Shown here one piece after another: positions 22,410 to 30,294 of a stretch of DNA of 64,000 nt. The notes beneath the pieces were generated by a model. The model was not told where the DNA came from. It made no database searches and worked only from the letters and a program-made list of their open reading frames with translations. The stretch is from Synechococcus sp. WH 8020 (GTDB lineage: Bacteria; Cyanobacteriota; Cyanobacteriia; PCC-6307; Cyanobiaceae), in assembly GCF_001040845.1 (NCBI RefSeq), contig NZ_CP011941.1:1497676-1561675 (forward strand). Direction: 5' to 3'. A program made the translations under genes and the position numbers. Position 1 is the first letter of the stretch. Each line of letters opens with the position of its first letter.

Positions 22410-22676
22410 ATGGCCCACAAGAAAGGCACAGGCTCAACCCGTAACGGACGCGACTCCAATTCCAAACGCCTTGGCGTTAAGGCCTATGGCGGTGAAACAG
22501 TAACGGCTGGCTCGATTCTCATTCGGCAACGCGGCACCTCCGTGATGCCAGGCGTCAACGTTGGTCGCGGGAAGGATGACACCTTGTTTGCCTTGACCGA
22601 CGGGATTGTCAAGTTTGAGTCGATCCGCCGCGGCCTCCGCAATCGCAAGCGCATCACTGTTGCTGCTGCTGAGTAA
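22410..22676 (+). CDS. rpmA: 50S ribosomal protein L27
   Basis: 88 residues, starting directly [29 protein letters not shown], the universal L27 N-terminus reaching into the peptidyl transferase centre, with no cleavable leader. [26 protein letters not shown] follows. 42 bases after rplU, followed by a strong terminator. In many relatives truB comes next, but here it is about 6.7 kb away. Confidence 0.98.
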
Positions 22677-22760: not shown

Positions 22761-22770
22761 GTTGGAACAA

Positions 22771-22920
22771 TCATCGAAACAGTTGAGGAGCCGACGCCGC
22801 GAGGCCGGAGTAGACCTCAATGAAAGAGTGAGTCGCGAAGTGCAGGGGGATTGCAATCCAAAGCAAAGCCAAAACAGACACCTGACCAAACCCAAACCAA
22901 ATGATGACCGCCGCATCCAC
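22771..22920 (-). CDS. small membrane protein, 49 residues (tentative)
   Basis: A short minus-strand frame starting with GTG at 22920: VDAAVIIWFGFGQVSVLALL then WIAIPLHFATHSFIEVYSGLAASAPQLFR. One hydrophobic stretch of about 22 residues, a His-containing interface and a polar tail look like a small photosynthetic-membrane peptide. I see no ribosome site and the frame opens only seven codons upstream, so support rests on composition alone. It converges on rpmA. A 148-residue frame over the same stretch in another register looks like noise. Confidence 0.45.
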   Translation of the reverse strand: MDAAVIIWFGFGQVSVLALLWIAIPLHFATHSFIEVYSGLAASAPQLFR

Positions 22921-22975
22921 GGACAGGCTTGAAAACCATTAAGTTTTTTTAACAACTTGTTTTGGGCTTTCCAAA

Positions 22976-23146
22976 ATGTCAACCGAAATCCGCAACTGGG
23001 ACCTTGTAGCCAAAGCGATGGAAGCGGCTGGGTCAACCTCAAGTCAAATGTATGTGCGTGCCAAAGCGCTAGCAGAAGGGAAACCTGATCCAATGCCAAC
23101 GAGCTTCCCTCAAGCACCCCACAGCATCTCTGCCGTTGCTGGCTGA
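22976..23146 (+). CDS. small soluble protein, 56 residues, unknown
   Basis: MSTEIRNWDLVAKAMEAAGS then TSSQMYVRAKALAEGKPDPMPTSFPQAPHSISAVAG. The first 35 residues look helical and the end is Pro/Ser-rich and disordered. No family is recognised. It lies 48 bases before the HLIP gene on the same strand, so the pair may be cotranscribed. The frame is too natural in composition to be chance, but no strong ribosome site is visible. Confidence 0.6.
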   Translation: MSTEIRNWDLVAKAMEAAGSTSSQMYVRAKALAEGKPDPMPTSFPQAPHSISAVAG

Positions 23147-23193
23147 GCAAACGCCCTTCACACACACAATCAAATTCTCATTTTCATAAAATC

Positions 23194-23337
23194 ATGTCTG
23201 ATCAATCAGCCTCCCGCTTCGGCTTCGTGGAATTTGCTGAGACCTGGAATGGACGCCTTGCGATGATTGGATTCGTGATAGGTCTTGGAACAGAGTTACT
23301 CACAGGTCAGGGAATTCTGAACCAAATAGGGCTCTGA
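23194..23337 (+). CDS. hli: high-light-inducible protein (HLIP/SCP, one-helix)
   Basis: 47 residues: MSDQSASRFGFVEFAETWNGRLAMIGFVIG then LGTELLTGQGILNQIGL. The core E.WNGRLAMIGF with chlorophyll-ligand Glu, Asn and Arg in one TM helix is the chlorophyll a/b-binding motif of HLIPs, which protect photosystems and bind chlorophyll under stress. NblS, whose relatives control hli genes, is encoded about 4 kb away. The gene marks the edge of the accessory region before the CA4-type genes. Confidence 0.93.
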   Translation: MSDQSASRFGFVEFAETWNGRLAMIGFVIGLGTELLTGQGILNQIGL

Positions 23338-23577
23338 ATATCAACCAACAAGGGGGCAATTCTGCACGCAAATCAATGCTTGCCAACACCATTACGGTAG
23401 TCAGCATTGCCCCACCACCAACCAAGCAATCCATTAAAAACATTTTTTCAGCCAGTCAAAGCGAACCATGTTTTGACTTAGCATTAACGCAATTCATAAA
23501 AAAGAATTTCGATGTATCACCATTAACCAGCAACTTTAAAAAGAGTCAATCATTATTTGTTTTTTGATTTCAACAAT

Positions 23578-24807
23578 TTAGTGCTGATAATCTAATTGCT
23601 GCTTTTCAACAAGTCTACCCATCACTTGCTGACAAGTCCAACGAAGAGGTCTCCAATAAGCAGACCTGGAAAGTTCATAGATCATGTCCATTTGATCGTA
23701 AAGTTCAAGCTCCAGACATGCCCAAGCTGCTGCTATCCTCGACTTCGTGTATTGAGGAGTGGTTTCTGAGAGAGCAGCTCGAACCAAATCACTTTTTTGT
23801 TGAAATTTACGCAGACCAATAATACATGTAAGATAATAATGAGTCACATAATCAGACCATAACCTTTCTTGCATACTGTTTATTATGTCAAGGCAAGTAT
23901 TTGACTCAATAGTCATGAGACTTAAAGCGGCCCCATACTGACGTGCTTCATCTCGGTGACTAAGGTTCCTTTCGATTTCAGCAGGATCCACATCGCACTT
24001 CCATTCACCTTTAAAGTTGAGATGTTGGGGATTATCAGTTAAAAGTTGTTCTAGAAGCGATTGATTTTTTGCCGTATCCATAGAGTTATTGGCATCAACA
24101 ATCTCCAAGAAACTTTTTGCCCTAAGGGACATAGAGACTGGTGCTCGCACCAGATCGGACAGTCTACTTTCATCACCAGCATCACCTAAATCAATCACAG
24201 CCGAACGTCGCTTCCCAGCCACCAAATCAGTGAGTTGCGGAACCAAAGGATCCAAAAGATCAACCCTCCCGTAGATCTTTGCCTGATACGCTCGAGCTGC
24301 ACCAGACACCAAGGCGCTCTCATGAGAACAAAGCTCATGGATAAGAGACTGAGATTTGGAATTTCTAATTTTTAGTCTGATGTGAGCTTGAATCACTGCC
24401 CGCACAAGGGTCACTTCACCGTTCAATAGTGATAAAAGTAGATCAATATCATCTGGAAGTGGTTCCCAACCAATTCTTACCAAGGAAGTAATGGCGTTAA
24501 TCACAGCCTCAGTATCAGTACAGCTCAAAACACCAACTAAAGCGGGAATTGCTCGCACATCTTTTCTTCTTCCTAATGCTTCAATAGATTTTCGACGCGT
24601 GATCCTGTCATACAATTCATCGGTTGAGAGCCTATTAACAGCATGAAGAAGTAAATCAAGCGATTCCTCAGTAGTACTCAAGCCAAGCCTAGTTGCTGCA
24701 AAATAACGATCTGCGGGTCTCTGAACATTCAGAGTGTTTTCCAATAAAAGTTTTAAGGCGTCATTTTCACTCATCCCTTGAACAAGAACATCAAATCTTT
24801 CGGCCAT
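23578..24807 (-). CDS. mpeZ: MpeZ-like phycobilin lyase-isomerase (HEAT-repeat, CA4 island)
   Basis: 409 residues of HEAT/PBS-lyase repeats: RYFAATRLGLSTTEESLDLLLHAV, RRKSIEALGRRKDVRAIPALVGVLSCTDTEAVINAITSLVRIG, SGAARAYQAKIYGRVDLLDPLVPQL. These are CpcE/CpeY-type bilin lyase features. The N-terminus MAERFDVLVQGMSENDALKLL fits the MpeY/MpeZ/MpeW group, which attach phycoerythrobilin to phycoerythrin-II alpha and, for MpeZ, isomerise it to phycourobilin. The choice of mpeZ over mpeW rests on the neighbouring FciC-like gene, a mark of CA4-A islands; sequence alone does not settle it. The gene is AT-rich compared with the core and has about 350 bases of upstream DNA free of genes. Confidence 0.8.
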   Translation of the reverse strand: MAERFDVLVQGMSENDALKLLLENTLNVQRPADRYFAATRLGLSTTEESLDLLLHAVNRLSTDELYDRITRRKSIEALGRRKDVRAIPALVGVLSCTDTEAVINAITSLVRIGWEPLPDDIDLLLSLLNGEVTLVRAVIQAHIRLKIRNSKSQSLIHELCSHESALVSGAARAYQAKIYGRVDLLDPLVPQLTDLVAGKRRSAVIDLGDAGDESRLSDLVRAPVSMSLRAKSFLEIVDANNSMDTAKNQSLLEQLLTDNPQHLNFKGEWKCDVDPAEIERNLSHRDEARQYGAALSLMTIESNTCLDIINSMQERLWSDYVTHYYLTCIIGLRKFQQKSDLVRAALSETTPQYTKSRIAAAWACLELELYDQMDMIYELSRSAYWRPLRWTCQQVMGRLVEKQQLDYQH

Positions 24808-25156
24808 AAGACAAAGATTAGCTCAACAAACTCTACTCAGACAATCAAATATCCACAGCAAAAACACAATTCATATGTCACACAATATAGACTATTATTG
24901 TCGCAATGATGCACTTCAAAGTGAGCATAGTTTATTTGCATCAATACAACATAAGCATTGCGCATATGCAGCAATTCGGTTTTCATAGATCAATACGTCA
25001 GACAGGAAAGGCCGACTGAAGGCACACCAGGCGAACCCCTTATCAATCGCAAGGAAGAAGGGCTAAAGCTACATCCAAATAATCAAACCAACTAAAAGGA
25101 ATAATTAAAAACAAGGAATATGATGACTTAGCTCAGCACAATACCAAGCACAAAGA
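24808..25156. promoter_or_regulatory. gene-free upstream region of the mpeZ-like gene
   Basis: About 350 AT-rich bases between the lyase start and the FciC-like stop. I see no ORF. It should hold the lyase promoter, which in known CA4 islands is controlled by FciA and FciB. A small palindrome GCATATGC lies near 24961-24968. No convincing AraC-type half-sites can be assigned by eye. Confidence 0.45.
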
Positions 25157-25324
25157 TCACTTCGATCGTTTATCAATTAATTCAATCAAGTGGGCATCAT
25201 GCTTGTCACAGAAGTCGGAAACACACTGCCTAAGAATGTGCCCAATAGATAAAGACTCTGTATAACAAAGAAGCTTGAGCTTTCTATGAAGCTCATCATT
25301 CAACTCAAAGGTGATTCGTTTCAT
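25157..25324 (-). CDS. fciC: FciC-like small ribbon-helix-helix regulator
   Basis: 55 residues: MKRITFELNDELHRKLKLLC, then YTESLSIGHILRQCVSDFCDKHDAHLIELIDKRSK. The opening KRITFELNDELHRKLKLLC is the beta strand and first helix of CopG/Arc-type ribbon-helix-helix DNA-binding proteins. Published CA4-A islands carry a small possible regulator named fciC, absent from CA4-B; position (between the AraC pair and the lyase) and size fit, but I have not compared sequences. Three Cys could be redox-sensitive. A target DNA site cannot be named. Confidence 0.7.
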   Translation of the reverse strand: MKRITFELNDELHRKLKLLCYTESLSIGHILRQCVSDFCDKHDAHLIELIDKRSK

Positions 25325-25521
25325 TCTCAAGCAGGATGTATTTGTCGAAAGCTCGACACAAATTAGATTCAGGATTTTCTCAATTATACTCTTTTTGATA
25401 AAAACCGGATACCCTAAGAAAAATCTTTATATTTGCTTAACCCCTGCCAGGCCTCAGTTCTGAGGCATTAAATGTTTCATCAATACTATATTTTAAATAG
25501 GGCAAATACTTGCTTATAAGC

Positions 25522-26478
25522 TCACAAAAGCTTTGAACGCTTAAGTGTCTGGCTTGGCAACTCTCCAAAACTAGTAAAGTATCTTCTTGAAAATCTACCT
25601 TGATGCTTAAACCCAAATCGAATCGCTATTTCACGAATAGTGTTAATATCACAGCTTGAGTTCGTAGACTTATAAATCATTGCCCTTCTAGCTTCCTCCA
25701 GTCTTACCTGGGTCATCATTTCTATAATTCCCATTCCAAAATAATCTTGGCATACTCGATAGAGAGAAGCTTGGCCAGCATTTAAAAGTTGACAAACCTC
25801 TGATAAGGATAATGGTGGGCTCATTTTTTCAGAATCATGCGAAAGATTAACGATCTCAGCAAGTAATCTCTGATTCTTTACCTGTTTCTTTTTATAGCCC
25901 CTATGAATTCCTTCTTCAAGGCATATAGTCATTAAATCATAGTATTTAGATGGATTCGAAATTCCCTTCACCAAATCCCTTCGGGTGAGTCTTCGCAATT
26001 GGGCAAAAGCTTCATGGTCTATATCTAATCCTATAGATCGACTTAGACTGTCAATGGCATGACTTGCGTTGCAATCTCGAAGATTCTTCAGAAGAATTTC
26101 CTTATCCAACATGCATGCAGTTGAAGAGCATGATTCTGAATATTTCCCCCACGAATCACCTGAATTTGTATGAAACGTATTAAGACCACCAAGACTATTA
26201 GTTTTCATATCATAACCTTCGCAATATCCAAAAGGATATTTTGTTTTCCGCATTGGCGTGATCCAATTAAAATCTACTGACCAACTTGTACCCCATCCCT
26301 CATATAAAAGTGGTTTTGATGCACTGATCTCTGCTATAGCCATGCTAGAGCATTTTTTATGTGACACAGAATAACTACCTTCACCACTTTCAAGTTGTGT
26401 AATTCTCGTCACTTGACCATAGGCCTGAAGAGTCTCAGACAATTGCAATGGATCTGTATAAGCAAATTGTAATTTCAT
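25522..26478 (-). CDS. fciB: AraC-family regulator of chromatic acclimation (FciB-like)
   Basis: 318 residues. The last 100 hold a double helix-turn-helix: SLSEVCQLLNAGQASLYRVCQDYFGMGIIEMMTQVRLEEARRAM and INTIREIAIRFGFKHQGRFSRRYFTSFGELPSQTL, close to the AraC consensus (GF...FSR.F...G..P). The N-terminal 200 residues are shared in pattern with the next gene but match no sensory family I know. In studied strains loss of fciB locks cells in the blue-light state. Start overlaps the upstream gene stop by four bases (ATGA). Which of the two is A and which is B is assigned by order only. Confidence 0.75.
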   Translation of the reverse strand: MKLQFAYTDPLQLSETLQAYGQVTRITQLESGEGSYSVSHKKCSSMAIAEISASKPLLYEGWGTSWSVDFNWITPMRKTKYPFGYCEGYDMKTNSLGGLNTFHTNSGDSWGKYSESCSSTACMLDKEILLKNLRDCNASHAIDSLSRSIGLDIDHEAFAQLRRLTRRDLVKGISNPSKYYDLMTICLEEGIHRGYKKKQVKNQRLLAEIVNLSHDSEKMSPPLSLSEVCQLLNAGQASLYRVCQDYFGMGIIEMMTQVRLEEARRAMIYKSTNSSCDINTIREIAIRFGFKHQGRFSRRYFTSFGELPSQTLKRSKLL

Positions 26479-27509
26479 GCTCTGCTCCCTCGACGCAAGT
26501 CAGAGACAAGAACACTCATCTTGCTTGCCTTATCAATTGTTTCTTCAGGGCTCTCTTGAAACGTCTTAAAATAAAGAAGTTGAAAAGAATTCCAATTTTT
26601 GAAGCCATAATATAAAGCATTATGTTTTTTAGTAAATTGCTTCAATCCAGCAGGGACATATGGATTTAAGTATGACTTCTTAACTTGTTCTAGACGAATA
26701 CTTTTAATGAGATCAAGAATATTCATGTTAAAGGTGGATCTACATACTTGGCCAACAGATTCCTTCTCAGAGTTTAAGTATTTTGTAATTTCTCCTATCG
26801 TCAGGGGTGGTAAACCTTCTCTATCTTCATGCAATAACTTGACAAGATCCTCTATCAGCTCCGTTGATTCAGATCTCTCTGTTATGTCATTCTGCTGTTC
26901 GCAAGGATCCTCTAGGGTTGCTATAGCTAAATCATAGAATTCATCGGCCGATGTCATTCCCTTCGAAAAATGCTTATCAAATAGCCTTTTAAGCTGAATG
27001 CTCGCATTACTATTGGAGTCAATGCCAATGCATTCTTCAATCCTCGCGTATGCATTGTACGCATTCATCTGATTTATTTTCTCTTTCATTATTTTCCACT
27101 TCAGGCTCATACAACAGAGGAGAGTATTTGCCCCAACAATGTCCCAAGTGTTTCCACCAGTTTTGTTTAAACGATTAAACCCTGCTATGCTTAAATCTCT
27201 CATCTTATGGCCGCTGATTATAGTATTGCTGCCTGGCCTTTTGCCTTGATTATTGATCCAACAGAATGCAATTGAATTTTGATTTGCTTCCTCCTCGTAT
27301 AACAATGTTTGATTTGACTTAAATATTTCAAGATGCACATTGTTAATTGGAGCGCAGATTGAACTCGTTTGCAATTCACCTTTGCTTAACTGGGTAATAT
27401 TGCAAGAGAAATTCGAAGTGGAATAGTAATCGTTATAATGATTCTTGCAATATGTTTCCATTCCAAGCAAATTGCTGAAAACATATTCTTTTGCCTTCCT
27501 TGCCTTCAT
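26475..27509 (-). CDS. fciA: AraC-family regulator of chromatic acclimation (FciA-like)
   Basis: 344 residues with the same plan as the coupled downstream gene: about 240 residues of unassigned N-terminal domain, then PPLTIGEITKYLNSEKESVGQVCRSTFNMNILDLIKSIRLEQVKKSYL and a second helix-turn-helix YYGFKNWNSFQLLYFKTFQESPEETI. The second motif keeps only the YGF and F.F..P positions. N-terminal landmarks shared with the partner include SQLSKGELQTSS/TQLESGEGSYS and LLYEEEA/LLYEGWG. In studied strains loss of fciA locks cells in the green-light state. Strongly AT-rich; likely promoter in the 330-base divergent gap at 27510-27839. Confidence 0.75.
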   Translation of the reverse strand: MKARKAKEYVFSNLLGMETYCKNHYNDYYSTSNFSCNITQLSKGELQTSSICAPINNVHLEIFKSNQTLLYEEEANQNSIAFCWINNQGKRPGSNTIISGHKMRDLSIAGFNRLNKTGGNTWDIVGANTLLCCMSLKWKIMKEKINQMNAYNAYARIEECIGIDSNSNASIQLKRLFDKHFSKGMTSADEFYDLAIATLEDPCEQQNDITERSESTELIEDLVKLLHEDREGLPPLTIGEITKYLNSEKESVGQVCRSTFNMNILDLIKSIRLEQVKKSYLNPYVPAGLKQFTKKHNALYYGFKNWNSFQLLYFKTFQESPEETIDKASKMSVLVSDLRRGSRA

Positions 27510-27839
27510 CTGAGTTACTGTCTTGGAGTGGGGTACTCTTTGTGAATTTATTAAGTCAAAATTATAATCTCTTTTGGCTTGTGATTGAAAAATCGTGATG
27601 ATCTATGACATCTTAAGATGAAAGGTTTTCCTTGCTAAGGAGAAGCCTGGAACGGCCAAGCCATAGAAGCGTGACAAATATTTACGACAGGGTCAGCTAA
27701 GTCAGTCTTGCGAAAACCATAAAACCGCAAAAGCACATTCACTATTTCTGCATTGCACTCGATATTATTCGCAGTGAGTATGGTTTTGCCTCAATTTTGA
27801 GTCGATGCAGTGTATAAAAATAAAAGAGATTATTCTGCC
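27510..27839. promoter_or_regulatory. divergent promoter region between fciA-like and Nif11-like genes
   Basis: A 330-base gap between two outward-reading CA4 genes. It contains an 8-base inverted repeat AAAACCAT (27713-27720) and ATGGTTTT (27780-27787), a short direct repeat of AAAACC (27713, 27721), and AT-rich stretches. AAGGAGA-like text near 27637 does not precede an obvious frame. Binding sites for the AraC pair or FciC-like protein would be expected here; this is inference. Confidence 0.45.
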
Positions 27840-28163
27840 ATGTCTAAGTCTCAATTACATGCTTTTATTGATCGAGCACGTAGTGACGAGCAATTTCGTG
27901 CTCGGCTCGCATCAATGAATCCACAACAGATCATAGAGTTTGCCGCGGAGAGTGGCTTTCAATTCTCAGACGAAATCAAAGGGAGATTTATCAATCGCTG
28001 GAAAGGCGTTTATTTCTGCCCTCAGGCCATTGAAGTTGGAAATCTATGTCCAGGATTAGTGCCACCTGGCTATAAAAATTTGATTCACTATGCTCAATCT
28101 ACATGTAGCTCTAAAACTCTTAAGGAAGAAGAATATGATTTCAGAGCAGGAGGCGTTTACTAG
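27840..28163 (+). CDS. Nif11-leader-like small protein of the CA4 island (unk10-like)
   Basis: 107 residues from the ATG at 27840 (MSKSQLHAFIDRARSDEQFR). An in-frame GTG at 27810 would add ten residues. The first 50 match the Nif11-derived leader pattern: L..F...A..D...R..L......IE.A...GF.F. The rest (FINRWKGVYFCPQAIEVGNL...YDFRAGGVY) is a private tail with two Cys and no Gly-Gly leader cut. Nif11 leaders normally guide peptide-modifying enzymes, none of which is nearby. I recall a gene of unknown function called unk10 in CA4 islands; this is the natural candidate by position. Confidence 0.7.
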   Translation: MSKSQLHAFIDRARSDEQFRARLASMNPQQIIEFAAESGFQFSDEIKGRFINRWKGVYFCPQAIEVGNLCPGLVPPGYKNLIHYAQSTCSSKTLKEEEYDFRAGGVY

Positions 28164-28561
28164 TCTTGGGAATTAAACTGGCCCATAAGAGACAAACCAT
28201 TTAATTTTCTCTGTCTTGCTTTTTAAAAAGCAATTCAAAAAATCTGATTTGCACTATTGGCTTCAATCAGCAAGAAGATAGTCACTCTGATTATCATTAG
28301 ATCTCTTAACCCTTAATCGAAACCACCACCAGCAAATAGGCAATGAGTGAATTATTGCTTACTTTTGATTTTCAACGTCAAGGCCTATTGCTCCTAACCC
28401 CAAAGGATAGACATTAAAGCTGTTACCAATAGCCTTAAACATTCAAAAACTGCACTTGATTCTTCATGCGAGATTTGCATTGAAAGGCTTTCTTCAAAGC
28501 AATTGCCAGACTACTCACTGTTATTTTTAAGGCCGTATTACAACGTGATGGATCACACAGA
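28164..28561. other. gene-free stretch after the CA4-like island, with palindrome
   Basis: About 400 AT-rich bases without a credible frame. It holds an 18-base perfect palindrome TTGCTTTTTAAAAAGCAA at 28216-28233, about 50 bases after the Nif11-like stop, which could end transcripts on either strand. It marks the right edge of the AT-rich block. Confidence 0.5.
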
Positions 28562-29344
28562 TTAAGTGTTAACAGCTATTGGCTTGTAGACCCTAGTCGT
28601 AATCAAAAGCGGATGAAAGACTTCGAGAAAGCGAGATTGTAACGTTCGAAAAAAGCAATCAACAAGGTCAGGATCATCAAAGTGAAAAGGATATTCGCCG
28701 CTATATCCTTTAAAGAAATACCAGTTCAATAAGGCCCGTCCGTCAGCATTCATCAATGAATGGAATTGCAGGAGCTGATCCGATGGAACAGGGAGGTGTT
28801 CCAAGACATCAAGGCAAACAACAGTATCGAAACGTTGACCGTTGAGATCGGCAAGATCACGATGAACGGACATTTTTTGATCCAAACCAAGAGCAACAGC
28901 CCTAGACCAGACGAAAGCCCTATTTTGTGGATTCAGATCAACAAAATGAACACGATCAACAGAATTCAATGCCGCTGCAGCCAAGGCATGGGTACCAATA
29001 CCTCCTCCAAAATCAAGGACTGTGCCTCGAGCAAAATCCTCCTGCAAACGAAGCGTGTCCGCGATGTAGTCAGAGCTGCTGAGATGCCATGCTGCTAATT
29101 CAAAGAGATGGCCTGTCCCCACGGTGCTCTCATAAAACTCCGTGGCTTGATCTGGTTGAAACGCCCCCGGATGCAGTGCGGCTAAATCATCCTTCCCATC
29201 GGGGAGGCGCTGATCCACCTGCTCCAACGTGAGCTGAAGGTGTTGAGCCAAATGGTCGCGAACAGAAAAGCCGTTGTCTAAAAAGGTCTCAATGTCCACT
29301 CGGGAAGAATTGCTCAGACTTTGCATCTTCTGCCGGACGAACAT
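28562..29344 (-). CDS. class I SAM-dependent methyltransferase
   Basis: About 260 residues from the ATG at 29344; another ATG at 29326 is possible. Motif I is GTVLDFGGGIGTHALAAA, the acidic end of beta-2 is VHFVDLNPQN, motif III region FDTVVCLDVLEHLPVP. The family uses S-adenosylmethionine; the substrate cannot be told. N-terminal 90 residues are helical and unassigned. It is divergent from truB with only 5 bases between ATG starts, which suggests that one of the two starts lies further downstream. Whether it belongs with the CA4 genes or was already next to truB is unclear. Confidence 0.82.
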   Translation of the reverse strand: MFVRQKMQSLSNSSRVDIETFLDNGFSVRDHLAQHLQLTLEQVDQRLPDGKDDLAALHPGAFQPDQATEFYESTVGTGHLFELAAWHLSSSDYIADTLRLQEDFARGTVLDFGGGIGTHALAAAALNSVDRVHFVDLNPQNRAFVWSRAVALGLDQKMSVHRDLADLNGQRFDTVVCLDVLEHLPVPSDQLLQFHSLMNADGRALLNWYFFKGYSGEYPFHFDDPDLVDCFFRTLQSRFLEVFHPLLITTRVYKPIAVNT

Positions 29345-29349
29345 CGTCA

Positions 29350-30294
29350 ATGTACGTGCAGGCCGGATGCCACATTCAGAACAGCTGCCACTGGACCCCC
29401 TTGGATGCACCACTCGGCTTCGTGGTGATCGACAAGCCCTCAGGTCTCACCTCCCACGCTTGCGTGAGCCGAATGCGTCGCGTGCTCCAAACCAAAAGAG
29501 TTGGTCATGGAGGAACCCTGGACCCAGCTGTGACCGGTGTTCTACCGATTGCCGTGGGCCAGGCCACCCGACTGCTTCCCTACCTGCCAGGCGAGAAAAC
29601 ATATCGAGGTGTGATCCAGCTGGGCACCAGCACCAACACCGATGACCTAGAGGGAGAGGTCGTTGCGATTCAGGCCTGGCCGGATTTAAGCCTGGAGGAG
29701 ATGGATCAGGCACTCAATCCCTTCCGCGGCAAACTCGAGCAGTGTCCTCCCCAGGTTTCAGCGGTTCATGTCAACGGCGAACGCGCCCATGCCAGGGCCC
29801 GCCGCGGTGAGGTGATGGACTTACCAGCACGAAGTGTGACCATCCACTCCCTCTCTCTTCAGCACTGGGATAGGAAGGAAGGCAAGCTCACCCTTGAAGT
29901 GCACTGCTCTGCTGGCACCTACATCCGGTCGTTGGCCAGAGATCTAGGCCAAGCCCTGGGATGCGGCGGCTGCCTGGGCTGGCTACGGCGCACCCAGGCG
30001 CTGGGATTCGTGGAGGCCCATGCAATTGCACTGCCCTTGCATCCCAATGAACAGAGCACTCCAGCAATGGAGCCACTAACCCTCATCCCTCCCCAACTCG
30101 CCTTGACCCACCTACCAATCCGAACGCTCTCCAAGCTCGAACGCAATGACTGGAGCTGCGGACGCACAATTCCCCATCAAAATGGTGATGGGCCCACCGT
30201 TGTTCTCAGTGAAGACAACATCATGCTGGGTATTGGAATCGCCAACGGCGAAGACCAGCTCAGACCCAAGGTCGTGTTTGAAGCGCGCGGCTGA
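29350..30294 (+). CDS. truB: tRNA pseudouridine(55) synthase
   Basis: Up to 314 residues; the family core starts [22 protein letters not shown], so a TTG at 29401 (giving [11 protein letters not shown]) is a strong alternative to the ATG at 29350. The catalytic Asp lies in [59 protein letters not shown] and [18 protein letters not shown] complete the signature. It makes pseudouridine 55 in tRNAs. In related genomes it usually follows rplU-rpmA; here an accessory block intervenes. Confidence 0.95.

Follow-up and report, generated by a model that had tools for sequence, protein, structure and literature searches.

The DNA analysed here (the window: 64,000 nucleotides, G000:C1:1497676-1561675, from a complete genome of 2,661,066 bp) carries a locus that we read, with a probability of about 0.93, as a complete and intact CA4-A (type IV) chromatic acclimation island from a marine Synechococcus of clade I, with genotype 3dA and the proposed MpeZ/MpeY mechanism. 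It is an island of an already published kind, and it confirms known biology rather than revealing a new system. The five open reading frames named in the initial annotation are confirmed at the coordinates in Table 1 and are beyond chance. Four of them, mpeZ, fciC, fciB and fciA, lie on the minus strand, with mpeZ downstream of fciA-fciB-fciC; unk10 sits at the 5′ end on the plus strand, divergent from the rest. The two AraC-type genes do overlap by ATGA (four bases, 26475-26478), and the ribbon-helix-helix-like protein has the proposed 55 residues when read from the conserved ATG at 25324, within an open reading frame that spans 25157-25330 of the minus strand; its domain matches are weak (ribbon-helix-helix/ParG, 0.004-0.09). 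In unk10 a conserved ATG at 27840 gives a product of 107 residues. The block is also AT-rich, as had been claimed, with 38.9% GC versus 52.1% for the window, and equally GC-poor stretches of 4.6 kb make up 1.7% of those in the window. An Rfam scan of the window returned nothing besides one tRNA.

Table 1. Features of the island and its flanks, in window coordinates
Feature	Coordinates	Strand	Evidence
rpmA, left flank	22410..22676	+	TIGR00062
Segment missing from the empty site of G295	22765..28584		blastn
mpeZ, predicted phycoerythrobilin lyase-isomerase, 409 aa	23578..24807	-	HEAT/PBS-lyase repeats 8.5e-11; MpeZ clade 100/100
fciC, small ribbon-helix-helix-like regulator, 55 aa from conserved ATG	25157..25324	-	weak RHH/ParG matches
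fciB, AraC-type regulator, 318 aa	25522..26478	-	HTH_18 3.4e-16
fciA, AraC-type regulator, 344 aa	26475..27509	-	HTH_18 5e-4
Putative divergent promoter region, fciA/unk10 gap	27510..27809		inferred from gene layout
unk10, Nif11-domain protein, 117 aa	27810..28163	+	Nif11 2.6e-11
Methyltransferase gene, right flank	28562..29413	-	Pfam Methyltransf_23 6.9e-13
truB	29350..30294	+	TIGR00431 3e-66

The island, at 1.52 Mb, lies away from the phycoerythrin genes, as first stated: the phycobilisome rod genes are at ~2.61-2.64 Mb, ~1.1 Mb off. This rod region has cpeA/B, mpeA/B, mpeC, cpeY, cpeZ and mpeY (PEI and PEII), together with two intact E/F-type lyase genes, one adjoining mpeC and the other adjoining cpeA, which we assigned as mpeU and mpeV, respectively, by gene neighbourhood and not by tree. 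MpeY is A-type. MpeA Cys75/83/140 and CpeA Cys82/139 are all present, among them the CA4 target cysteines (MpeA 83 and 140, CpeA 139), and residue 141 is His in CpeB and Leu in MpeB, which is the state reported for WH8020, type 3dA. The genome thus has the gene set that defines 3dA (mpeU plus mpeV, here by neighbourhood, and MpeB Leu141; PMC5318389, PMC7948978, PMC9705338); every CA4-A strain is reported to have mpeV and mpeU together (PMC7948978). Similarity figures for MpeV, CpeB and MpeB agree with those published for WH8020, but G213 matches them equally well.

A genetically complete CA4-A island may nevertheless be silent, as in pigment type 3aA (MVIR-18-1-like), and natural cases have been published in which strains with complete islands acclimate barely or not at all, among them RCC307 and MVIR-18-1, the latter without mpeU (PMC3877281, PMC5318389). 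For MVIR-18-1, published as non-acclimating, the absence of mpeU has been proposed as one reason, and its genotype fits that of G101 in our comparison, which has a full island, no mpeU beside mpeC, distant CpeY/CpeZ and MpeB His141. The window genome differs in having mpeU; its two lyases, MpeB Leu141, A-type MpeY and the five unbroken frames of the island make a silent island improbable here. Because it has the target cysteines and, unlike G101, both lyases and MpeB Leu141, the genome of the window is predicted from its genes to acclimate.

Judged by its sequence, the lyase of the island is MpeZ. A maximum-likelihood tree of 84 lyases places it inside a 19-member MpeZ clade (100/100), which upholds the earlier assignment to the MpeY/Z/W group; clustering with CpcE/CpeY, set beforehand as refuting, is not seen. 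The clade takes in the MpeZ of RCC307 and an RS9916-like MpeZ, has MpeQ, with the crystal structure PDB 7mc4 among its members, as its sister group, and stands apart from MpeY, MpeW and CpeY. The window protein is 93% identical to the MpeZ of G213 (the nearest genome), 65% to that of the RS9916-like G253, 64% to that of RCC307, and 49% to its own MpeY. It has the HRDE motif, at 284, that is found in all MpeW, MpeY and MpeZ sequences. Its Tyr320-Val321 align with Tyr318-Val319 of MpeQ, a pair credited in published work with activating phycoerythrobilin and forcing its isomerisation (PMC9705338), and the second position of this pair is Gly in all MpeY and MpeW sequences. Six positions, including window Val321 and Tyr325, are invariant in MpeZ and MpeQ and never common to MpeY. 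MpeQ resembles the window enzyme in being its sister clade and in having the same isomerase pair, but differs in its gene location: CA4-B strains have the gene within their phycobilisome region, where it takes the position of mpeY.

A CA4-B island with an MpeW-type lyase, as in the A15-62-type genome G249, has fciA, fciB, unk10 and an E/F-clan lyase in common with the window, but it has mpeW in place of mpeZ, no fciC and a different gene orientation, and it lies inside the phycobilisome region. In the window the lyase is only 37-38% identical to MpeW, fciC is present, and the island is not beside mpeU/cpeZ. The lyase tree and fciC refute the CA4-B reading, to which we give almost no weight, and the initial annotation's choice of CA4-A over CA4-B is borne out by fciC, the MpeZ clade and the gene order. 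Just as negligible is a chance placement of a general CpeY/CpcE-type lyase beside AraC regulators that have nothing to do with CA4: the sole NCBIfam matches are to the CpeY, CpcE and CpcF models, all under cutoff, but the tree position, the HRDE motif (in none of 30 CpeY sequences) and 25% identity to the genome's own CpeY refute it.

The regulators point the same way as the lyase, to CA4-A. The AraC pair has the proposed similarity to FciA/FciB, with 72% and 64% identity to its counterparts in RCC307, a published CA4-A strain. Intact fciA-fciB pairs, always adjacent, occur in 28 of 400 family genomes, with one further remnant; they are confined to three genera, those with CA4 islands, and every fciB orthologue in this set sits in such an island. 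Among genomes with intact fciAB, a term used here for any pair recovered at full length, fciC is present in 19/19 of A type and 0/9 of B type; fciA of G231, one of the 19, is interrupted by a stop codon, and two of the 19, G231 and G147, are without mpeZ. The nine genomes without fciC are CA4-B with MpeW-type lyases, and in the six of these that were mapped the island is inside the phycobilisome region. Identity of Unk10 is 73-93% in CA4-A islands and 50-53% in CA4-B islands. Named records that carry fci genes include RCC307, UW105, UW140 and the SP2 metagenome assembly, and the single-cell records AG-683-C23 and AG-686-F08. Outside its island, G213 encodes a second FciC-like protein (C1:674258-674416), 51% identical.

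FciA and FciB are paralogous over their full length (hhalign probability 100%, 306 columns) and have a common N-terminal region of ~200 residues that has many invariant Cys, Trp and His and, outside the HTH, no Pfam match. AlphaFold models of the two proteins, made from 10 sequences, reached pLDDT 45 and 50 and are too poor for use. Quite speculatively, the N-terminal region could be a blue/green sensor or a redox relay, which would make the island a colour switch complete in itself. Neither k-mers nor spaced dyads rose above shuffled controls when the fciA-unk10 and fciC-mpeZ gaps were compared across 8 representative genomes, and no binding site of FciA/FciB was found.

The island was originally described as lying between rpmA and truB, genes said to be adjacent in relatives. 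The first part of this holds; the second does not, as a methyltransferase gene intervenes in 22/22 neighbourhoods, and the island is located between rpmA and this gene. Homology to the empty site of G295 (L147, blastn) stops at window position 22764, at the rpmA terminator, and restarts at 28585. The intervening segment also carries a 56-aa open reading frame (22976-23146) and an hli-like gene (23194-23337); hli genes have been seen beside such islands before. Complete islands occupy the same locus in G213, G101, G332, G034 and G283, and remnants of it are found there in G231 and G075. In G231, fciABC and unk10 are kept, mpeZ is absent and fciA has a stop, a state that matches the published WH8016; G075 has fragments only, and in G295 the site is empty. 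No direct or inverted repeats of at least 12 bases were found at the island edges. Neither FciB nor MpeZ was found on viral contigs, so transfer by phage is unsupported by these scans. Outside clade I (L116, L121, L123, L128), the gap between rpmA and the methyltransferase gene is ~500 bases and has a conserved small membrane-protein-like open reading frame; clade I carries the island in the gap where these four have the small frame.

Compared with known islands, the closest match is the clade I CA4-A island of Humily et al. 2013 (PMC3877281), which has the same five genes, arranged and oriented alike, and likewise an hli-like gene alongside; the rpmA-side site is common to the five other complete islands, and we see no difference of substance. 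WH8020 and CC9311 are among the clade Ia CA4-A strains of that study. The CA4-A islands of RCC307 (L039) and of G253, likened to RS9916 by its flanking psbA copies and unk14 (DUF2237-like), have the same gene content and order but differ in chromosomal site and in the MpeZ identities given above, and the psbA copies and unk14 of G253 are a further difference from the island in the window. CA4-A islands have been reported never to lie in the phycobilisome region (Humily et al. 2013, PMC3877281); in contrast, that of AG-683-C23 (L038 8333-12896 onward; G297 contig C4) adjoins the phycobilisome rod genes, with linkers from ~300 bases past mpeZ and mpeY ~9 kb off.

Several other genomes have partial islands. 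G289 (C1:1012601-1014233) and G271 (C9:33329-34956), large genomes of 3.3 and 3.1 Mb, still have fciC and mpeZ but no fciA, fciB or recognisable mpeY, which matches the published loss of fciA/fciB in BIOS-E4-1. G147 (C1:2125641-2127975), G231 and G075 have fci genes or remnants and no mpeZ, and mpeY is of the low-phycourobilin (3a) type in all three; this suggests that mpeZ is lost in genomes with a 3a-type phycobilisome region. Fragments of Synechococcus CA4 islands also occur in metagenome-assembled genomes labelled Aliivibrio, Crocinitomicaceae and Flavobacteriales (L034, L044, L047), most likely through binning contamination.

The proposed mechanism draws its enzyme activities, blue-light induction and activator/repressor roles from the published relatives RS9916 and A15-62, which we infer the window strain to resemble in behaviour. 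MpeZ and MpeY compete for MpeA Cys83, the former in blue light and the latter in green (PMC7948978; PMC10904595); mpeZ is induced by blue light (PMC3877281), and each CA4 island encodes one activator and one repressor (PMC9705338). In this strain, FciA/FciB would raise mpeZ expression in blue light. FciC, whose part, like that of Unk10, is provisional, would probably adjust the direction in which the response runs. MpeZ would then put phycoerythrobilin on PEII alpha Cys83 and isomerise it to phycourobilin, out-competing MpeY, which would add plain phycoerythrobilin at Cys83 in green light. The blue-to-green absorption ratio would thereby track light colour.

These results indicate that the genotype of a chromatic acclimater can be identified from sequence, by simple checks of the MpeZ Tyr-Val pair, FciC, mpeU and MpeB residue 141, and the comparison places the island at a single fixed site in clade I.
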